DNA from: Methanobrevibacter sp.
GTDB lineage: Archaea; Methanobacteriota; Methanobacteria; Methanobacteriales; Methanobacteriaceae
Assembly: GCF_017410345.1 (NCBI RefSeq)
Contig: NZ_JAFQQZ010000021.1
Coordinates: 1-64,000, forward strand
Reading direction: 5' to 3'
DNA: 64,000 bases
Shown here: positions 1 through 23,147 of the stretch, one piece after another
Numbering within the stretch: the stretch's first letter is position 1
Layout: the number at the start of each line of letters is the position of its first letter
Notes under the pieces: model-generated
The model's input: the letters and a program-made list of their open reading frames with translations, nothing else
Database searches by the model: none
What the model was told of the DNA's origin: nothing
Translations under genes and position numbers: made by a program

Positions 1-2040
1 ATAAGCTTCACAACTTTGTCTATCCAATGCATGCTTGTGAACGTGCATATGCTTTATGCCGCTTTCTGTCTTGATTTCATCAATTATCTTGATTCCATCA
101 TGGGAATGTGAATGCTCGCCATCATTGTGGAAATGATAATGGCTGTGTTCCACATTTTCAGTATCTATCTTCTTTATTGAATCGTCGAATTTTCTGTCAT
201 AGAGCAATGCAGCATTCAATACGACAAGACATGAACCTGCATTATGAACAATAGCACCGGTTACCGGATTCAAGAGCCCCAATACGGAACAGACAATGGC
301 CGCTGCATTGATTGCCATTGAAATTATGATGTTTGCCTTGATTGTAAACAAGGTTGAATTTGAAAGTTTCTTAAGATATGGAATCTTGCCTATGTCATCC
401 CCTAAAAGTGCAATGTCCGCCGCTTCTATTGCAACATCACTTCCAACTGAACCCATTGCAACGCTTACATCAGCAGTCTTAAGTGCAGGAGCATCGTTTA
501 CCCCATCTCCAATCATACAGACTTTCTTGCCTTCCGCTTTAAGCCTTTCAATCCAATCAAGCTTTTCTTGAGGGAGCAGATTACCATATACCTTTCCGAT
601 TCCAACCTGAGAAGCGAAATAATTAGCAGTTTCAGTATTATCTCCAGTGAGTAATATAGTCTCAGTTCCTAAATCATGCAAGTTTTTAATCATATCTTTA
701 GAATCTTCACGTATTACATCAGATAATCCGATTAAACCTATTACTTCATCATTTAATGCGACAACAATTGAAGCTTTTCCTTCATGTTTCAACTGATTCA
801 ATATGGAATCAACATTTACATCAATATTGTTTTCTGATAGAAATTTGGAGTTTCCTGCATATACCTGACCATAAGAATTTTTACAGCTTACCCCTTTTCC
901 AGGATACATATTAAAGTCTTGTGGTTCTTCAATATCAATTTTAGCTTCTTTTGCCTTTTCAACAATAGCCTTAGCCAATGGATGCTCGCTTAATTTCTCA
1001 CAGGAGGCAACTATGTTCAAAACATCCATTTCATCCAAATCATCTTTTAGGGATATAATATCTGAAACCGCTAAATTACCGTAAGTCAAAGTACCTGTCT
1101 TATCGAAGACCAGGGTATTCAATCCGCCTAATGTTTCAAGGGCCTCACCAGACTTAATCAATACTCCATATTTTGTTGCCTGGCCGATGGCTGCCATAAT
1201 CGCTGTTGGAGTTGCAAGTATCAATGCGCATGGACAGAATACAACAAGCACTGTAACTCCCCTTTCAACATTTCCGGTTATTAGCCATGCGGCAATTGCA
1301 ATGAACAATGCTACAGGAACAAGCCAAGTTGCCCATTTGTCTGCAATCCTTTGGGTTGGAGCCTGCTTCTCATCAGCGGCCTTCACAAGGTCAATCAGTT
1401 TTTGGAGTGAGGAATTTTCTCCTAAACTGGTAGCCTTAATGTCGATTGCACCATACATATTCATGGTACCGCAGAAGACTTCGTCCCCCACTTCCTTATC
1501 AATCGGCAAGGATTCACCAGTCATGATTGACTGATCAAGAGAGGTGGTACCATTTATAATTTCTCCATCAACAGGTACGCTTTCACCAGGAAGAATTCTT
1601 AAGATATCTCCGATTTTAATGTCATCAACAGAAATCATCTCTTCCTTGCCGTCTACAATTCTTCTACCTGTCTCTGGAGTTAGATTAATAAGATTTCTCA
1701 ATCCTTTTTTTGCCCTTTCAACTGTCCAGTCTTCCAAAAGGGCACCTAAAGCCATAATCCATGCGACTTCTCCTGCAGCGAATATCTCACCAATGAGTAG
1801 TGATGCAACCATGGCTATTGCAATGAGGAGTGCAGATGAAACCCATTTTTCACGAATCAATCTGGTCATAGCCAAGAGGAGCATTGGAATACCGCTTATT
1901 ATCACAGCACCCCATGCAGGGTTCAGGTAAATTGGAACATCAATTCCAAATATCATGAATATGATAGCAATCAAGAGAAAAATACCTGAAATTATGGTCA
2001 TCTTCAAACCAAACAGGTAATCGGTTATTTCATCAATCAT
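1..2040 (-). CDS. Heavy-metal translocating P1B-type ATPase, C-terminus cut by window edge
   Basis: The frame is open from an ATG at 2040 to base 1 (680 codons) without a stop, so the C-terminus lies outside the window. The translation shows P-type ATPase hallmarks in order: membrane segments near the N-terminus, the TGES actuator motif near residue 174, the intramembrane CPC metal site near residue 268, the DKTGT phosphorylation site near residue 312, and a GDGVND hinge further on. There is no N-terminal CxxC heavy-metal-associated domain. Instead the visible C-terminus (about residues 625-675) is rich in His, which is probably a metal-binding tail. It should export a soft or transition metal ion across the cytoplasmic membrane; CPC-type pumps move Cu, Zn, Cd or related ions, and the sequence alone does not fix the metal. 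The next gene upstream is nicotianamine synthase-like and also metal related. Confidence 0.9.
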   Translation of the reverse strand, partial: MIDEITDYLFGLKMTIISGIFLLIAIIFMIFGIDVPIYLNPAWGAVIISGIPMLLLAMTRLIREKWVSSALLIAIAMVASLLIGEIFAAGEVAWIMALGALLEDWTVERAKKGLRNLINLTPETGRRIVDGKEEMISVDDIKIGDILRILPGESVPVDGEIINGTTSLDQSIMTGESLPIDKEVGDEVFCGTMNMYGAIDIKATSLGENSSLQKLIDLVKAADEKQAPTQRIADKWATWLVPVALFIAIAAWLITGNVERGVTVLVVFCPCALILATPTAIMAAIGQATKYGVLIKSGEALETLGGLNTLVFDKTGTLTYGNLAVSDIISLKDDLDEMDVLNIVASCEKLSEHPLAKAIVEKAKEAKIDIEEPQDFNMYPGKGVSCKNSYGQVYAGNSKFLSENNIDVNVDSILNQLKHEGKASIVVALNDEVIGLIGLSDVIREDSKDMIKNLHDLGTETILLTGDNTETANYFASQVGIGKVYGNLLPQEKLDWIERLKAEGKKVCMIGDGVNDAPALKTADVSVAMGSVGSDVAIEAADIALLGDDIGKIPYLKKLSNSTLFTIKANIIISMAINAAAIVCSVLGLLNPVTGAIVHNAGSCLVVLNAALLYDRKFDDSIKKIDTENVEHSHYHFHNDGEHSHSHDGIKIIDEIKTESGIKHMHVHKHALDRQSCEAY

Positions 2041-2422
2041 AAAGACACCTTCTTTGAAAATAATTTTTTAGAATTTTAATTGCAAATTTTACCTTTACCA
2101 AAATTTATTAAAAATTAAAAAGTATTACTTTTTTATAGTTTTTTATACTTTTAGTATTACTAATTATAATTTTATGCAATTAAATATATAAAAGTTATTA
2201 CTTTTTTTAGGTTTATTTATATACTAAGTATTACTTTTTGAAAAATCAGTGAAAAATTTAATCAAAAATAGCTTAAAAAAAATAGAGAAAATAAAAGTAA
2301 AAAAATTTAAAAAATTATGAGAATTATGAAAAATATAAAAAATTAATAAAAAATATAAGAATTATAAAAAATTTAAAAAAAATTAAAAAAGAGAAGTAAG
2401 AATTAAAATTAATTAATTCCAT
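2041..2422. other. Non-coding spacer upstream of the metal ATPase
   Basis: About 380 bases of A+T-rich sequence without a plausible gene. It carries the promoter of the metal ATPase and three exact GTATTAC motifs plus one near copy, described as a separate feature. The stretch 2270-2400 is simple A-rich sequence just past the stop of the nicotianamine synthase-like gene. Confidence 0.7.
2121..2235 (-). promoter_or_regulatory. Array of AGTATTACTTTTT motifs upstream of metal ATPase
   Basis: Exact GTATTAC copies lie at 2122-2128, 2154-2160 and 2228-2234, with a near copy (TTATTAC) at 2195-2201. All have the same orientation, most are followed by a run of T, and spacings are 32, 41 and 33 bp, close to whole helical turns. 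They lie about 80-195 bp upstream of the ATPase start. The same motif recurs upstream of other genes in the first 24 kb. Binding of a regulator is inferred. Confidence 0.45.
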
Positions 2423-3244
2423 TTAAACAATTTTTCTAATTAGAACAGAAGTATTGTTTGTTTTTCCTCTTGGGAGCAACATGACTTCCTGATGGAATCC
2501 TCTTGTGTCCTTATCAGTTACCGGAGAGTAAAGAATGGCTCTCATACCAGTATAGGTCCTGTAAAGAACAGGAGTCTTTTCATCAACAACATCCCAAACA
2601 TTGGCAAACACTCTGTCTTTAGGTTCAGCAAAGGCTGCAATCATCAGGATATCATAATCCAAATCTGCAATGGTCTTTTCAGTGCCAGTTACAATTTCAA
2701 TACCCTCATCAAGTTCTAAGCGTTTTAAAACTTTTCTTGACAATTCTGCAACCTCTGGGTCTTGTTCAATGCCTATGCATTTGCACCCAGTCACCATATT
2801 GAACATAATTATGGTTAATGGCAATGGTCCACTGCCTAGGAATACAAATGTCTTGTTTTCATTGAAATTAGCCAATTGCCTTTCATTATCTATAAGGCCA
2901 ATGTACCTGTCATAGAAATGGAAGGAATCCAAAGCTTCCTTAGGATTTTCAGACTCCAATATTGTCAAAGCGTTTTCCCTTTCCAATCTTGCACCGATAT
3001 AGACATAAAACTTACGGATCAATTGCAACGCCTTGCTCATCTTCTCATCATCAAGAATGTGCTTTGCTGAGTCAAAGTCTATCTCCTTATCGTGAGCAAT
3101 CACTTCAATCTCATCTAATACCTTTTTAATCTCTTCAATGTCAGTTCCATCCAAAGCGGATATGCCTTCATTATCCAGATCACCGAAACTGGAAAGTTTA
3201 TTGGCAATTTCTTCAATTTTGCCCCAGTATTTATAACAACTCAT
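2423..3244 (-). CDS. Nicotianamine synthase-like protein
   Basis: The 273-residue product matches the archaeal nicotianamine synthase-like family, whose characterised member in Methanothermobacter makes thermonicotianamine. The family transfers aminopropyl groups from S-adenosylmethionine and glutamate to build an opine-type metal chelator. The sequence starts MSCYKYW, has an all-helical N-terminal domain, and then a Rossmann fold with the glycine-rich FLGSGPLPLT near residue 135 and the acidic GIEQDPE strand end near residue 158. The conserved YRTYTGMRAILY block near residue 230 and NNTSVLIRK at the C-terminus are also typical. It lies between the metal ATPase and mch on the same strand. The chelator likely binds nickel, zinc or a similar ion; which ion is not visible from the sequence. 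Confidence 0.9.
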   Translation of the reverse strand: MSCYKYWGKIEEIANKLSSFGDLDNEGISALDGTDIEEIKKVLDEIEVIAHDKEIDFDSAKHILDDEKMSKALQLIRKFYVYIGARLERENALTILESENPKEALDSFHFYDRYIGLIDNERQLANFNENKTFVFLGSGPLPLTIIMFNMVTGCKCIGIEQDPEVAELSRKVLKRLELDEGIEIVTGTEKTIADLDYDILMIAAFAEPKDRVFANVWDVVDEKTPVLYRTYTGMRAILYSPVTDKDTRGFHQEVMLLPRGKTNNTSVLIRKIV

Positions 3245-3579
3245 TTAATCACAACACAAAAATTTAGAATAAAGCTCTTAAATCTATCTGAAATTTCTAA
3301 ATTTAATACTTTATATTTAATAATTATTAATATAATGCATAAAAATATTTCTAAAAAAAGTAATACTAAATTGCTTATTTTAAGTTAAAAAGTATTAATT
3401 ATTATAAAAATCAGTTTTTATTTTAATACGAATGAAGAATAATTGATTTTAAAAAGTAATGCTATTTGCATTAAAAAATAAAGAAAAATTATAAAAATAA
3501 TAAGAATAATGGAAAAAAAGAAAAAAGAAAATAGCTAAAATAACTATTATAATTAAAGTACTAAGAATAAATACTAAAT
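3245..3579. other. Non-coding spacer upstream of nicotianamine synthase-like gene
   Basis: About 335 bases of A+T-rich sequence between mch (which ends at 3580 on the minus strand) and the nicotianamine synthase-like gene. It holds the promoter of the latter and a set of motif copies listed separately. I see no ORF with a ribosome binding site. Confidence 0.7.
3360..3462. promoter_or_regulatory. GTAATAC motif copies at about 32-bp spacing
   Basis: One exact GTAATAC at 3360-3366 is followed by near copies GTATTAA (3392-3398), TTAATAC (3423-3429) and GTAATGC (3456-3462), with centres 32, 31 and 33 bp apart. The last copy is part of a perfect inverted repeat TAATGC-N5-GCATTA (3457-3473). The set lies 116-220 bp upstream of the nicotianamine synthase-like start. 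It resembles the array in front of the metal ATPase. The regulatory role is inferred. Confidence 0.35.
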
Positions 3580-7562: not shown

Positions 7563-8192
7563 CTAATTTTCTTCCAATGCATTTTTTGTAATTCTAACTG
7601 CCCCTTTGGAGTGAATTCTAACCACTGGATGCTCATCATTTTCGCCAATCCATTCCAATTTATCCAAATAAGGTTCAACATAATGATGTTTCCTTTTTCC
7701 TATCACCCTAAACATTTCAGGAACTTCCATTCGAACCTTTTCATTTGAATCGCTGATCATTTCATAAAAGATGTCCAATTTTTCACAAAACAATTCAGGA
7801 GCATTTGTCCCTATATTCTCACATGCCCAGATGAATGAAAGTCTAACTGCAGCATCTTCATCTTCCCTTGCTTTCATAAGCTTATCCAAATATGGAATTG
7901 CAAGCTCTTTATCCGCTCTGCCGATTCTTCCCAATGCATTTATAGACCTTTCCCTAAACTTTGGATTCTCATTTTCCAAGTATCCTGAAATCTCCTCAAT
8001 GTGGATTTTAACTAAATCCGGATATTGAAGTCCCATCTCCCCAAGCATCCATAATGCCTTTGCCCTGACATTATCTGAATAATTATCATTCAACTTAAGA
8101 GCAATTTCATCAATGTGACCTTTCCAATTTTCCTTATCCTTTTGAATGTCTCTTAATTCCTTCAATATCTCTTTTTCATCTTTTTTAAGCAT
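7563..8192 (-). CDS. HEAT-repeat protein (paralogue 1)
   Basis: The 209-residue protein is built of about five helical HEAT-like repeats, visible as recurring VRAKALWMLGEMG, FRERSINALGRIGRA, VRLSFIWACENIG and VRMEVPEMFRVIG units at about 35-40 residue intervals. These form a solenoid used for protein-protein contact. It has no catalytic motif. A close paralogue lies at 57197-57838, identical over long blocks such as WACENIGTNAPELFCEKLD. The binding partner is unknown. The long upstream spacer carries two exact copies of the GTAATAC motif. Confidence 0.85.
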   Translation of the reverse strand: MLKKDEKEILKELRDIQKDKENWKGHIDEIALKLNDNYSDNVRAKALWMLGEMGLQYPDLVKIHIEEISGYLENENPKFRERSINALGRIGRADKELAIPYLDKLMKAREDEDAAVRLSFIWACENIGTNAPELFCEKLDIFYEMISDSNEKVRMEVPEMFRVIGKRKHHYVEPYLDKLEWIGENDEHPVVRIHSKGAVRITKNALEEN

Positions 8193-8624
8193 TATTTAAC
8201 CCTATATTCTTTGTAAATAAAGATTGAAAGAACAGTTAACTCAACTCTTTCTTCTATTTAAACTATTTAAAAATACTAATATATGCTTTTTATCAAAGCT
8301 TCTGAATATAATTTCTGAATAAAAATTCTAAAAATAATTATGATAAAAATCTAATAATAATAAAAATTTTAAAAAAAGTATTACTAAAAATGGAAAAATA
8401 TGCAAAAACTTAATAATCAATGATTATAAAAATAACTTTACTAAAAAAAGCTCTTTAAAAAATCAATTTTATTAAATGACATATTTAATAAAATTCACTT
8501 TTTCAATTAAAATTAATAATTAAATCTAAAAAATGAATAAATTCAAATTATAGATTTAATTATGAGCTAAATTAATTTTAATTGAGATATAAGAAGATTT
8601 GGCATATTTAAATTAAATTTGATA

Positions 8625-8646
8625 AATATTACTGGGGAGTAATACT
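8625..8646. promoter_or_regulatory. Inverted pair of the GTAATAC motif around GGGG
   Basis: AATATTACT (8625-8633) and AGTAATACT (8638-8646) are inverted copies with one mismatch, separated by GGGG. It is one of the few G-rich points of the spacer. It lies about 450 bases upstream of the HEAT-repeat gene. The role is inferred from the recurrence of the motif elsewhere. Confidence 0.35.
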
Positions 8647-8930: not shown

Positions 8931-9332
8931 TTACTTATTTCTTGGTCCAAGTTGACTAACCGTATTATAGAACTCTTTCATGGTCCTTTGGAATTTTTCA
9001 CCTTCAGAAGCTGAAATCCATTCAAATCTGAATCGCTCCTTGTCAATTCCAAATTCCTCTATGATGTCTTTAGTCATCAATGCCCTTCTATTCCATTTGT
9101 AATTACCTGCATCATAGTGACAATCACCTATATGGCAACCGCCTACGAATACTCCATCGGCACCTTCTTTAAATGCCTTAAAGATCATAGAAGGATTGAT
9201 TCTTCCAGAACACATAACTCTTATAATACGCACATTAGGAGGATATTGCATACGTGCAGTACCTGCAGTATCAGCACCGCCATAACAACACCAATTACAA
9301 CAAAAACCTACTATTTTAACATCTTCTGCCAT
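8931..9332 (-). CDS. mvhD: MvhD/FlpD-like [2Fe-2S] electron-transfer subunit
   Basis: The ATG at 9332 is chosen because AGGAG lies nine bases upstream; a TTG nine bases earlier would sit directly on that site. The 133-residue protein matches MvhD, the delta subunit that carries electrons from F420-non-reducing hydrogenase, or from formate dehydrogenase, to heterodisulfide reductase HdrA. Conserved cysteines are seen in [11 protein letters not shown] near the N-terminus, the CSGRINP block and GCHIGDCHY in the middle. It follows the FdhB-like gene with only 15 bases between them, so it is part of the same operon. This arrangement points to an electron-input branch to Hdr rather than a stand-alone protein. 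Confidence 0.9.
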
Positions 9333-9347
9333 AATATTCAACTCCTA

Positions 9348-10499
9348 TTAAAAGTCTTCTTTCATTGGACTGTATAATGGAGGCTTTTCATCCCCAATAC
9401 CTGCAAGATATCCAGTTTGGCTTTCGTATTTCTTTTGCAATTTATGGAATAGCTTAGATACTGGAATTTCCATTGGACATACGTCATCACATTGACCGCA
9501 ATTTATGCAGCTTGGACTCATATGAGATAATCTTACACCATGGAATCCTAATGGATCAGGAGGTGATTGCGGGTCATCCTTAAAGTAAGGCTTTTCAAGT
9601 TCACATTCATGACACCAGCAGATAGGACAAACGTCACGGCAAGCAAAGCATTTTATGCATTTGTTCCATTGGGCTTCCCATTCCTCAAGGGATAGGCCAT
9701 CATCCAATTGTTTGCCAACATTTCTATTACCCATCTTAATCATGATGTTTTCAACTTTGTCCCTCATTTCTAAAGCCTTTTCAGAAGGTGCCTTGGTTTC
9801 AATGAATCCTTCTGCAATAGCTCCATCAATTATTTCCTGACCTTTTTCAGTGTTGATTTCAACAAATGTCCAACCAGGTTCGCTACCCCAGTTACCACAT
9901 GCAATGTCAGCATTACGAGGAACTTTAAGTTCACATCTTTGACAGTTGTCACGACGTCCGTAACCTTCCTCTTCCAAGTCATCAATCTTGATTCCGATTT
10001 CTTCACCATCATCAAGCTCAATGATGAATTTACCTTTGTCAATTTCTTCCTTAACGACTTTAGAAGGGTCAACCTTATAGAATTTTTCGATCATTTCCTG
10101 TGCCATTTCTGGCCTTACTGTACCACCACAGTTCAAACCGACAGTGATGATCTTATCACCATCAATTCTGTGTCTTTTAACCAATTCATTAATAGCCTTT
10201 GCATCACATGGCTTAACTGCAACAGCTATTCTTTCATCAGCTAAAAAATCAGAAATCAAGTCACTTACCATTGTAGGTGCACAATGCAAGGAACCGCATG
10301 TTTCAATGACTTCTTCTGCACTGGTTAAAAGTCTTGGAACACCATCATAGACATCAATGCCCTTATTAAGAGTCAATACTCCATCAACCAGTTCATTAGC
10401 TAATAAATATTGAAAAATAGAACTTACTGCTCCTCCACATGCTCCACTATCAGTTATTTCATTAGCCTTACTTTTAGCAAGAATTAATTTTTCACTCAT
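9348..10499 (-). CDS. fdhB: Formate dehydrogenase beta subunit-like (F420-binding FrhB/FdhB family)
   Basis: The likely start is the ATG at 10499, preceded by GGTGATAAA; an in-frame ATG at 10526 would overlap the upstream gene. The 383-residue product has the FdhB/FrhB domain that binds FAD and F420 in the first part, with KPCDAKAI and GRRDNCQRC blocks. The C-terminal part is ferredoxin-like, with CIKCFACRDVCPICWC and CINCGQCDDVCP motifs at about residues 300-360. In true formate dehydrogenases this subunit passes electrons between the molybdopterin subunit and F420. Its alpha partner here is truncated, so the electron donor is uncertain. Confidence 0.88.
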   Translation of the reverse strand: MSEKLILAKSKANEITDSGACGGAVSSIFQYLLANELVDGVLTLNKGIDVYDGVPRLLTSAEEVIETCGSLHCAPTMVSDLISDFLADERIAVAVKPCDAKAINELVKRHRIDGDKIITVGLNCGGTVRPEMAQEMIEKFYKVDPSKVVKEEIDKGKFIIELDDGEEIGIKIDDLEEEGYGRRDNCQRCELKVPRNADIACGNWGSEPGWTFVEINTEKGQEIIDGAIAEGFIETKAPSEKALEMRDKVENIMIKMGNRNVGKQLDDGLSLEEWEAQWNKCIKCFACRDVCPICWCHECELEKPYFKDDPQSPPDPLGFHGVRLSHMSPSCINCGQCDDVCPMEIPVSKLFHKLQKKYESQTGYLAGIGDEKPPLYSPMKEDF

Positions 10500-10512
10500 T
10501 TTATCACCGATA

Positions 10513-11589
10513 TCAAGCAAGCTCATTGAATATTTCCATTTCGCTTATATTATCATTTTCACATTCAACAGATATGTCAAAGCATTGTTCCAGACCTTCA
10601 CAGTTAGTGAAAGTACCACATTTTTCCGCCCAGGATTTTCCAGGGAGAATGACATCTGAGAGTTGAGCAAAACGATTGTTTTCACTGGAAATATTTACAA
10701 TGAAACCTTTTCCTTTAATGTCATCTTCAGATATGTAATCCAATGGATTATCTTTAACGACAATAAGTACTTTAGAGTCATCAATAATGTTCTTTATCTC
10801 TCCTTCGTCCCATGAATCCAATCTGTTCATTGCACCTTTCATGTTAGGTGCATTGAAAACAGGCAATAGCTTTGCACCGGTATCGGCAGACAATGATTCC
10901 AATAATGCAAAGTCATCCTTGCAACAGATCTTGTTTGCAATGATTATTGAATTTTCATCCAAATTGCCTTTTACAGCATCTATCTTATCTTCAAGATGAC
11001 CGTCAAATTGAATGAATTCATCTGCATTCAAAGAAGTGATGGATTTTTCCACATCATCTAAATTAACGAGGCATGCGCCATTTTCTTTAGATATGACTAT
11101 TCTTCTAGCCAATAAAGGATTTTCCCTATAAATGTCCCCAATAGCCAATATGGTGTTTGCACTTGCTATATCATCATAGCTTGCTACATCAGCTGAGAAA
11201 TTAGGGAAGTTATATCCATAAAATCCTATTTTTTCACAACCAAAGCCATCAGCAAATTCTTTAATCTTATCAAGCTCTTCATTAGTGCTGTTACCGGAAC
11301 AGATAATGGCTAACTCACTTTTATCTATGGAAGCTAACTGGTCTTTAACAAGGTTTAAGACAGTTTCACAGTCAGATCCCTCAAGTTCGCCATTTTTCAC
11401 TATTGAAGGTTCCTCAATTTGATTATCAAATTGCAGGATGGAATTTCGACCGTTTAAACAATTTTTTCCTTCATTGATAGGATGTCTCTTATATGGATAG
11501 GTTCCAACTACTGCTCCATCTTTTGAAACAATATTCAAACCGCATCCTACAGAACATGAAGGACATATTGTATGTTTTATGTCTAACAT
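10513..11589 (-). CDS. Truncated formate dehydrogenase alpha-like molybdopterin oxidoreductase
   Basis: The 358-residue protein begins with the molybdopterin-oxidoreductase [4Fe-4S] pattern (Cys9, Cys12, Cys16 and Cys44), followed by the FdhA-like NEGKNCLNGR. It ends just after SWAEKCGTFTNCEG, a landmark that lies about two thirds along a full FdhA of roughly 680 residues. The C-terminal cofactor-binding domain is absent, as is the active-site Cys/Sec block of catalytic FdhA. It is therefore unlikely to oxidise formate as such, but may still carry an iron-sulfur cluster. It is the first gene of an operon with the FdhB-like and MvhD-like genes. It resembles the formate dehydrogenase-like (flp) clusters known in Methanobacteriales; that link is from memory and not tested. 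Confidence 0.75.
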   Translation of the reverse strand: MLDIKHTICPSCSVGCGLNIVSKDGAVVGTYPYKRHPINEGKNCLNGRNSILQFDNQIEEPSIVKNGELEGSDCETVLNLVKDQLASIDKSELAIICSGNSTNEELDKIKEFADGFGCEKIGFYGYNFPNFSADVASYDDIASANTILAIGDIYRENPLLARRIVISKENGACLVNLDDVEKSITSLNADEFIQFDGHLEDKIDAVKGNLDENSIIIANKICCKDDFALLESLSADTGAKLLPVFNAPNMKGAMNRLDSWDEGEIKNIIDDSKVLIVVKDNPLDYISEDDIKGKGFIVNISSENNRFAQLSDVILPGKSWAEKCGTFTNCEGLEQCFDISVECENDNISEMEIFNELA

Positions 11590-11770: not shown

Positions 11771-11798
11771 AGTGTGATTAAAATAAAAAAATCACACT
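11771..11798. promoter_or_regulatory. 28-bp inverted repeat AGTGTGATT-N10-AATCACACT
   Basis: Two perfect 9-bp arms are separated by 10 bases of A+T. It could be an operator for a dimeric regulator or, less likely, a hairpin. It lies 182-209 bp upstream of the truncated FdhA-like gene. It has no sequence in common with the GTAATAC motif, so a second regulator is possible. Confidence 0.4.
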
Positions 11799-12142
11799 TT
11801 TTATATATTTAGTAATACTTATTTAAACATTTTGAAAAAATAGCTAAAATTTAAATCGATTAAAACGGATATTTTTAAAAAATAATTCCATATTTAAGTT
11901 AAAATTAGAATAAAAGATAAAATTGACAATAAAAGTTAATTTAATCCTTTAAAAATTCTCAATTTTAAAAAAGTAATAATTTTATTAAAAATAATTTTTC
12001 ATTATATAAAATTTAATCACTAAAAATAAATTTAAAGACTTTATTTATTAAAATTAAGATTAAATTAATCTATTTTAAGGAAATAATAAATTTTTAATTG
12101 TTTTTTTAGAAATAAAGCCAATTTTATTGGATATAAAAATTA

Positions 12143-12198
12143 GTAATACTTTTTTTAAAATTTGTATTAAGTAATACTTTTTTTACAATTCGTATTAT
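12143..12198. promoter_or_regulatory. Tandem 28-bp operator-like units GTAATAC-N14-GTATTA
   Basis: Unit 1 (12143-12170) and unit 2 (12171-12198) abut exactly, and 25 of 28 positions are identical. Each unit has GTAATAC at the left, a 14-base A+T spacer, and GTATTA at the right. The 21-bp centre-to-centre spacing of the arms is two helical turns, the geometry of ribbon-helix-helix tetramers such as NikR. The regulator's identity is an inference. Confidence 0.45.
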
Positions 12199-22534: not shown

Positions 22535-22918
22535 CTAATTTTCATCATCATCTTTTTCAATGCTGATGCTTCTGACAGTAATTTCTTTACCATTTGTCAC
22601 TTCGACCCTATGGCTTTCACATTTAGGGCATAAGACCATAGGTGCATAATGGTCACTGTCGTCAACATTACCTTCACCTTCAAAGCCACAATTGTGACAT
22701 TTGATTTCAACATCAATAGTATTAATGATCATCTCGACGTTTTTTGTCAGTTCTTCTCCTTCACACATAACGCCAAGCATAAACTTCAATTGTTCCGGAT
22801 TCAACATAGCCAATCTTCCAATTTCAATAACCATTTCAGTTACTTCAATCGCATCATTAGCTTCTGCAGTGTCCATAACTGTGCTGAAAATACCTTGAGC
22901 CATAGCAAATTCGTGCAT
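22535..22918 (-). CDS. hypA: Hydrogenase nickel incorporation protein HypA
   Basis: The 127-residue protein is HypA, which binds nickel through its N-terminus (MHEFAMAQ, with the essential His2) and zinc through two CxxC pairs, here CHNC near residue 73 and CPKC near residue 98. It works with HypB in loading nickel into hydrogenase. In methanogens the target enzymes are the Frh, Mvh, Ech/Eha/Ehb-type hydrogenases. An exact GTAATAC copy lies 112 bases upstream of the start. Confidence 0.95.
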   Translation of the reverse strand: MHEFAMAQGIFSTVMDTAEANDAIEVTEMVIEIGRLAMLNPEQLKFMLGVMCEGEELTKNVEMIINTIDVEIKCHNCGFEGEGNVDDSDHYAPMVLCPKCESHRVEVTNGKEITVRSISIEKDDDEN

Positions 22919-23022: not shown

Positions 23023-23036
23023 ATTACCAGTAATAC
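23023..23036. promoter_or_regulatory. GTAATAC motif in a short inverted repeat upstream of hypA
   Basis: ATTAC (23023-23027) and GTAATAC (23030-23036) form a short inverted pair, followed by a T run. It lies 105-118 bases upstream of hypA, similar to the position of the motif at the metal ATPase and nicotianamine synthase-like genes. Confidence 0.35.
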
Positions 23037-23147
23037 TTTTTTAAAAAATTTTAAAATAATGATGATAGAATAAATGAAAAAATAAACTAATCAAAAATAG
23101 AAAAATAAGAAAAAATAAAAAATGAAAAATATTTTTTAAAATAAAGT

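Follow-up and report, generated by a model that had tools for sequence, protein, structure and literature searches.

A predicted distal operator upstream of elpABC and its place in a putative nickel regulon of Methanobrevibacter

The elpABC locus and the upstream doublet

The window, that is, the whole 64,000-nucleotide stretch of Methanobrevibacter DNA that was analyzed, carries elpA, elpB and elpC on its minus strand; the coordinates of these and other features are collected in Table 1. The gene described as FdhA-like in the initial annotation was identified as elpA because its product is short (358 aa, whereas full-length FdhA-like proteins in the genus have approximately 690 aa), because FdhB-like and MvhD-like genes lie next to it, and because it fits the description of ElpA in excerpts of PMC12350162. 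The elpABC genes specify a hydrogenase bypass that is made under nickel limitation (Nomura 2025). The position of a TATA box 5' to the proximal operator box is conserved in many genomes, and from this arrangement an elp promoter is predicted near 11811-11827. The inverted repeat directly downstream of the predicted promoter shows compensated base changes in relatives, GTGTTATT/AATAACAT and CGTTATT/AATAACG, as judged by eye, and is a candidate for a 5' hairpin or another operator. In the M. smithii-like and M. thermautotrophicus-like sequences (L215 and L228) elpA is separated from the elp promoter by a small ORF at the position of ElpX; no small ORF was seen there in the window.

Farther upstream lie two 28-bp units which, as originally described, abut with no gap and are identical at 25 of 28 positions. 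The other measurements made at the outset also held: the arms are 21 bp apart from center to center (7-mer centers at 12146 and 12167, and at 12174 and 12195), and the distance to the FdhA-like start, first put at approximately 550-600 bp, is 554 and 609 bp from the elpA start (11589). Each unit has a core, GTAATAC, that forms a palindrome within AGTA(A/T)TACT. Genome statistics were derived from pattern searches and fetched stretches of sequence. The exact pattern TAATAC-N14-GTATTA occurs twice in the window, compared with 0.01 expected; none of 100 shuffles reached two copies, and the two units are the only exact matches in the 1.84-Mb genome. There was no enrichment of the pattern in the window when up to 3 mismatches were allowed (29 versus 24 expected), nor in the whole genome with up to 1 mismatch (27 versus 28 for the reversed control). 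A one-mismatch copy of the 28-bp unit is located at 8358-8384 on the minus strand. Since the two copies may represent one site plus a tandem duplication, the local count alone is little proof, and it is conservation in relatives that decides for a real element. Absence of the units from close relatives had been named as grounds for abandoning them; instead, a doublet was found upstream of elpA in 7 of 7 other species examined (ElpA identity 63-90%). The weak arm, TAATAC, is retained in nearly all doublet copies of these seven relatives; L025 has one degenerate unit copy, and three unit copies are present in L022.

Table 1. Positions in the window of the elpABC genes, predicted control elements and other box-associated sites
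Feature	Coordinates	Strand	Remarks
elpA	10513..11589	-	truncated FdhA-like subunit
elpB	9348..10526	-	FdhB/FrhB-like
elpC	8931..9341	-	MvhD/FlpD-like
Inverted repeat	11772..11797	-	GTGTGATT...AATCACAC; directly downstream of predicted elp promoter; by eye
Proximal operator box (predicted)	11811..11819	.	AGTAATACT; adjoins elpABC TATA box
TATA box of elp promoter (predicted)	11820..11827	-	TTTAAATA; TTTATAT in relatives
Middle operator box (predicted)	11972..11980	.	AGTAATAAT; ATTATTACT on gene strand
Distal operator unit 1 (predicted from sequence and conservation in 7 other species)	12143..12170	.	GTAATACTTTTTTTAAAATTTGTATTAA; box AGTAATACT 12142-12150, weaker arm GTATTA 12164-12169
Distal operator unit 2 (predicted from sequence and conservation in 7 other species)	12171..12198	.	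GTAATACTTTTTTTACAATTCGTATTAT; box AGTAATACT 12170-12178, arm GTATTA 12192-12197
Box cluster before metal P-type ATPase gene 1-2040(-)	2121..2235	.	boxes at 2121, 2153, 2227; weak box at ~2192
Boxes before nicotianamine-synthase-like gene 2423-3244(-)	3359..3400	.	
Box before hypA (22535-22918, -)	23029..23037	.	
Two boxes between elpC and HEAT-repeat gene 7563-8192(-)	8377-8385, 8638-8646	.	261 bp apart

The general box and the genes beside it

The 28-bp unit is confined to elp, whereas the element found more generally is a 9- to 11-bp palindrome, AAGTAWTACTT. The window contains 12 AGTA(A/T)TACT 9-mers, compared with 0.45 expected. In the whole genome the single 9-mer box is barely enriched (59 versus 46 for a reversed-pattern control), so that the argument is carried by clustering and context rather than by counts. 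Pairs of boxes within approximately 40 bp numbered 111 in 19 congeneric genomes, versus 1 for the reversed control. Within the window's genome, strong boxes most often have a partner at 32 or 21 bp, and minor peaks occur at 31, 43, 52 and 53 bp; 21 bp is a secondary peak for weaker partners. Among the strong pairs listed, 48 of 75 are 31-33 bp apart, while 11 bp is found in 5, 28 bp (as in the elp doublet) in 4, and 21-22 bp in 2. The favored spacings indicate that boxes tend toward one face of the helix, three turns being the commonest step. Inspection of the 32-bp pairs for interleaved or hidden half-sites at 21 bp revealed none.

Boxes or box clusters were located 5' to hmd, hmdC, a CbiM-type importer, two NikA-like binding proteins and cfbA, which encodes the nickel chelatase of F430 synthesis, as well as 5' to the nicotianamine-synthase-like gene, the metal P-type ATPase gene and elpABC. 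Single boxes or clusters also precede frhA, mcrB and hypA. The identities of the genes other than elpABC were checked by profile search. Most of these targets recur next to box pairs in relatives. Boxes were sought and not found at the second elpA paralogues L034 and L042, and thus they are not a general feature of FdhA-like genes.

According to excerpts of an account of how Methanothermobacter marburgensis responds to nickel limitation, Elp and Hmd are induced, Frh and Mvh are lost, and Elp replaces the nickel hydrogenase Mvh (PMC12350162). The set of genes beside the boxes, taken together with this literature, defines a nickel regulon by content. The response described in those excerpts parallels the present gene list in elp, hmd, frh, the mcr isoenzymes and metal-chelation genes, and a NikR1 homologue is among the induced proteins; the same excerpts describe no operator, and the word "promoter" does not occur in them (PMC12350162). 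A further difference is that Methanothermobacter has no exact box pairs. The case of frhA shows that one simple repressor role is insufficient, since this gene has boxes and yet falls under nickel limitation in M. marburgensis. The frhA boxes stand far upstream of the apparent frhA TATA box and may act differently from those of elp.

Several box-associated loci deserve separate mention. The product of the nicotianamine-synthase-like gene is weakly similar to CntL of staphylopine synthesis; with two NikA/CntA-like binding proteins in the same regulon, it could possibly form part of a methanogen nickelophore system. A dense box cluster at L105 (G000:C54, 8997-9125) lies in a long intergenic stretch with no obvious adjoining gene and may mark an unannotated nickel-regulated transcript. 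At L052 (G000:C29, 11822-12313) a box is found approximately 50 bp upstream of a gene for a 163-aa protein without a Pfam match, possibly a new member of the nickel regulon.

NikR as the candidate regulator

The window's genome has one NikR gene (C55:6393-6854; PF08753 and PF01402). All four nickel ligands are present (H76/H87/H89/C95, in the pattern H-x10-H-x-H-x5-C), as they are in the other NikRs of the genus that were inspected, which usually also have a His-rich tail. The DNA-binding strand RISMSLP is invariant in the sampled members of the order, and both the strand and the ligand pattern agree with solved NikRs. In the window's genome the nikR gene is close to a likely hydrogenase maturation protease gene, as judged by eye. 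Weak boxes 21-22 bp apart are present upstream of nikR in G000. NikR is encoded in single copy in nearly all genomes of the genus that have boxes; it was not found in six draft genomes with box pairs (G008, G040, G063, G075, G099 and G120), several of which are incomplete. Genera that have no box pairs likewise encode NikR, so that co-occurrence does not single it out.

The half-site of the box is related to a published one: the delta-proteobacterial NikR motif is GTGTTAC-[N13/14]-GTAACAC, and GTATTAC matches its half-site at 6 of 7 positions (PMC545781). The delta-proteobacterial operators resemble those described here in having 7-bp half-sites one base different, in sharing the N14 spacing of the doublet, in preceding nickel transporter genes, and in a predicted hydrogenase target, hydAB2 (PMC545781). 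Unlike them, the box is a small perfect palindrome, strong boxes are mostly 31-33 bp apart, several copies stand far upstream at fixed distances, and the regulon is much wider. The E. coli NikR operator, GTATGA-N16-TCATAC, resembles the doublet in having inverted half-sites two turns apart and in serving a nickel uptake gene, but differs in half-site sequence, as the initial annotation had said of the enterobacterial site, and is a single promoter operator with no distal copies (PMC7055735). Published NikR half-sites are approximately two turns (20-22 bp) apart (PMC545781, PMC7055735). The original proposal of NikR-type geometry therefore stands for the doublet, with its conserved inverted half-sites at 21 bp, but not for the general box, for which two turns is not the prevailing arrangement; because of the prevailing 31-33 bp spacing, we do not assert that the general box belongs to the NikR class of sites. 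The gene context, with boxes before nickel transport and nickel enzyme genes, agrees with such a class, and NikR is probably the protein that binds the boxes.

One alternative is that the boxes are nickel-regulon operators of a different dimeric regulator, such as a winged-helix protein or some other ribbon-helix-helix protein, which would sense nickel or the state of hydrogen metabolism while NikR serves other targets. The dominant 31-33 bp spacing is unlike known NikR sites, NikR occurs in genera that lack box pairs, and part of the target set is linked to hydrogen supply as well. We nevertheless regard such a regulator as unlikely: the half-site is one base from a known NikR half-site, the doublet has the N14 geometry, the targets include nickel importers, CfbA and HypA, and NikR, in single copy in nearly all genomes, is the only recognized nickel-responsive regulator that was searched for.

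Fixed distances between the boxes and a proposed mechanism of control

In the window and in seven relatives (ElpA 63-90% identical) the doublet, the middle box and the TATA-adjacent proximal box are all present. The middle-to-proximal distance is 161 bp in 8 of 8 species of the genus, the window included. From the last box of the doublet to the middle box it is 170 bp (171 in L024 and L026), and the distal-to-proximal distance is thus 331 or 332 bp, with 331 in L022. By contrast, the distance from the proximal box to the elpA start varies between approximately 209 and 385 bp. In other genera of the family (14 genomes, ElpA approximately 40-44% identical) the middle-to-proximal distance is 151-152 bp and the distal-to-proximal distance is mostly 320-323 bp, with 310 and 313 bp also seen; most of the middle boxes in these genera match at least 8 of 9 bases, and a few weaker ones (7 of 9) rest partly on position. 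One interval therefore differs by 10 bp between this genus and the others, and the steps amount to approximately one helical turn. At hmd the distal gap takes two values, 108-109 and 119-120 bp, which likewise differ by one turn. Since the species are related, there are few independent one-turn changes, perhaps three. In L113, L114, L116 and L117, elpA is divergent to a second hypA-like gene (hypA2) and an mcrB isogene (mrtB-like). Box pairs in relatives are 322-323 bp apart at hypA2 and 333-335 bp apart at mrtB. Exceptions to the regular spacing are L148, with its distal site at 263 bp, and L151 and L154, where no distal site was found.

The sequence between the boxes is far less constrained. 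Spacer identity between G003 and the others is 0.34-0.49, compared with 0.31-0.35 expected from composition; many pairs of the other genus are at the expected identity, with spacers near saturation in distant pairs, and closer pairs reach 0.52-0.66. No consensus RNA structure of the spacer is conserved (-0.23 kcal/mol), and no open reading frame in it is shared among relatives. The length is thus kept more strictly than the sequence, as would be expected if proteins at distant sites must face each other. At the Methanothermobacter elp promoter (L228, the M. thermautotrophicus-like sequence, and L229) only the proximal box is present, directly after TTTATAT. The few genomes available suggest that the proximal operator is older and that the distal ones were added in gut Methanobacteriaceae.

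Bacterial repression loops of the LacI, GalR and AraC type employ several operators hundreds of base pairs apart with conserved helical phase, and NikR is a tetramer with two DNA-binding ends. At elp and hmd, operators more than approximately 100 bp apart likewise keep their helical phase. Unlike those bacterial loops, the present arrangement has three sites and an archaeal TATA promoter, and both the binder and the loop are putative. The two DNA-binding ends of NikR suggest that it could bridge separate sites. An early hint that DNA looping might explain the unusual distance of the doublet from elpA agrees with the phase-locked spacing, from which looping itself is inferred.

A second alternative requires no loop: the fixed distances would arise because archaeal histones package the DNA, the regulator marking or phasing what is wrapped, or because the regulator forms a continuous filament. 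Methanobacteriales possess histones; AT-rich, near-saturated spacers spanning 150-170 and 310-335 bp would suit such packaging, and one-turn steps fit any face-dependent contact. A filament, however, predicts regular boxes in the spacer, and none were seen; on the whole, we think this explanation rather unlikely, though worth bearing in mind. Far less credible is the earlier suggestion of an unannotated transcript, in the form of a promoter or start of an RNA or small gene, approximately 330 bp in length, between doublet and elpA. On the gene strand of the window, a TATA-like sequence, TTTTTATAT, does follow the doublet directly on its 3' side, and the length of the region is constant, but the spacer is near saturation in distant pairs; a search of the doublet-to-gene region against Rfam gave no match, and with no consensus fold or shared frame either, the suggestion was not borne out. 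A riboswitch or small RNA gene was rejected on the same grounds of no known family and no conserved structure. That the doublet is a functionless AT-rich palindrome, arisen by chance in a region of approximately 12% G+C where patterns with up to 3 mismatches occur at chance frequency and then doubled by recent tandem duplication, is refuted by its retention at homologous positions in 8 species with ElpA identity of 63-90%.

The box, its clustering before nickel genes, the conservation of the doublet and the base-pair-exact spacing maintained despite drift of the spacer are properties of the sequences themselves. On balance we consider it probable that the doublet is a distal operator of elpABC within a nickel-sparing and uptake regulon of gut Methanobacteriaceae, bound by NikR and acting in nickel-dependent repression by looping or wrapping. 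The ribbon-helix-helix end of NikR is the most likely candidate for the dimeric DNA-binding unit that would recognize AGTA(A/T)TACT, and the nickel-loaded protein would occupy the distal doublet, the middle box and the TATA-adjacent box. With its four half-sites, the doublet of 28-bp units would accommodate two adjacent tetramers. Repression would be exerted at the proximal box, with the doublet and the middle box serving as helpers that raise the local concentration. Joined into loops or one wrapped complex, the occupied sites would keep elp off at sufficient nickel; as nickel falls the protein would leave, and elp, hmd and the importers would be expressed. That the nickel-loaded form represses is deduced from a relative in which low nickel induces Elp and Hmd. 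The more specific proposal of a three-operator, phase-locked NikR loop or wrap, which would join boxes 150-335 bp apart in several genera and control elp, hmd and other genes as an archaeal long-range complex conserved in length but not in sequence, is offered tentatively, at slightly less than even confidence. Searches of the open-licence literature revealed no description of this operator or its spacing, nor of the regulon and the promoter architecture to which they belong.

For the rumen and gut methanogens, the analysis points to a defined operator, a candidate regulator and a set of genes through which cells may switch from nickel hydrogenases to the nickel-free Hmd-Elp route or back; this switch has so far been described at the protein level in other methanogens. 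With the spacing over 320-330 bp exact to the base pair and changing in steps of one turn, long-range control of the loop type can be tested directly in archaea.
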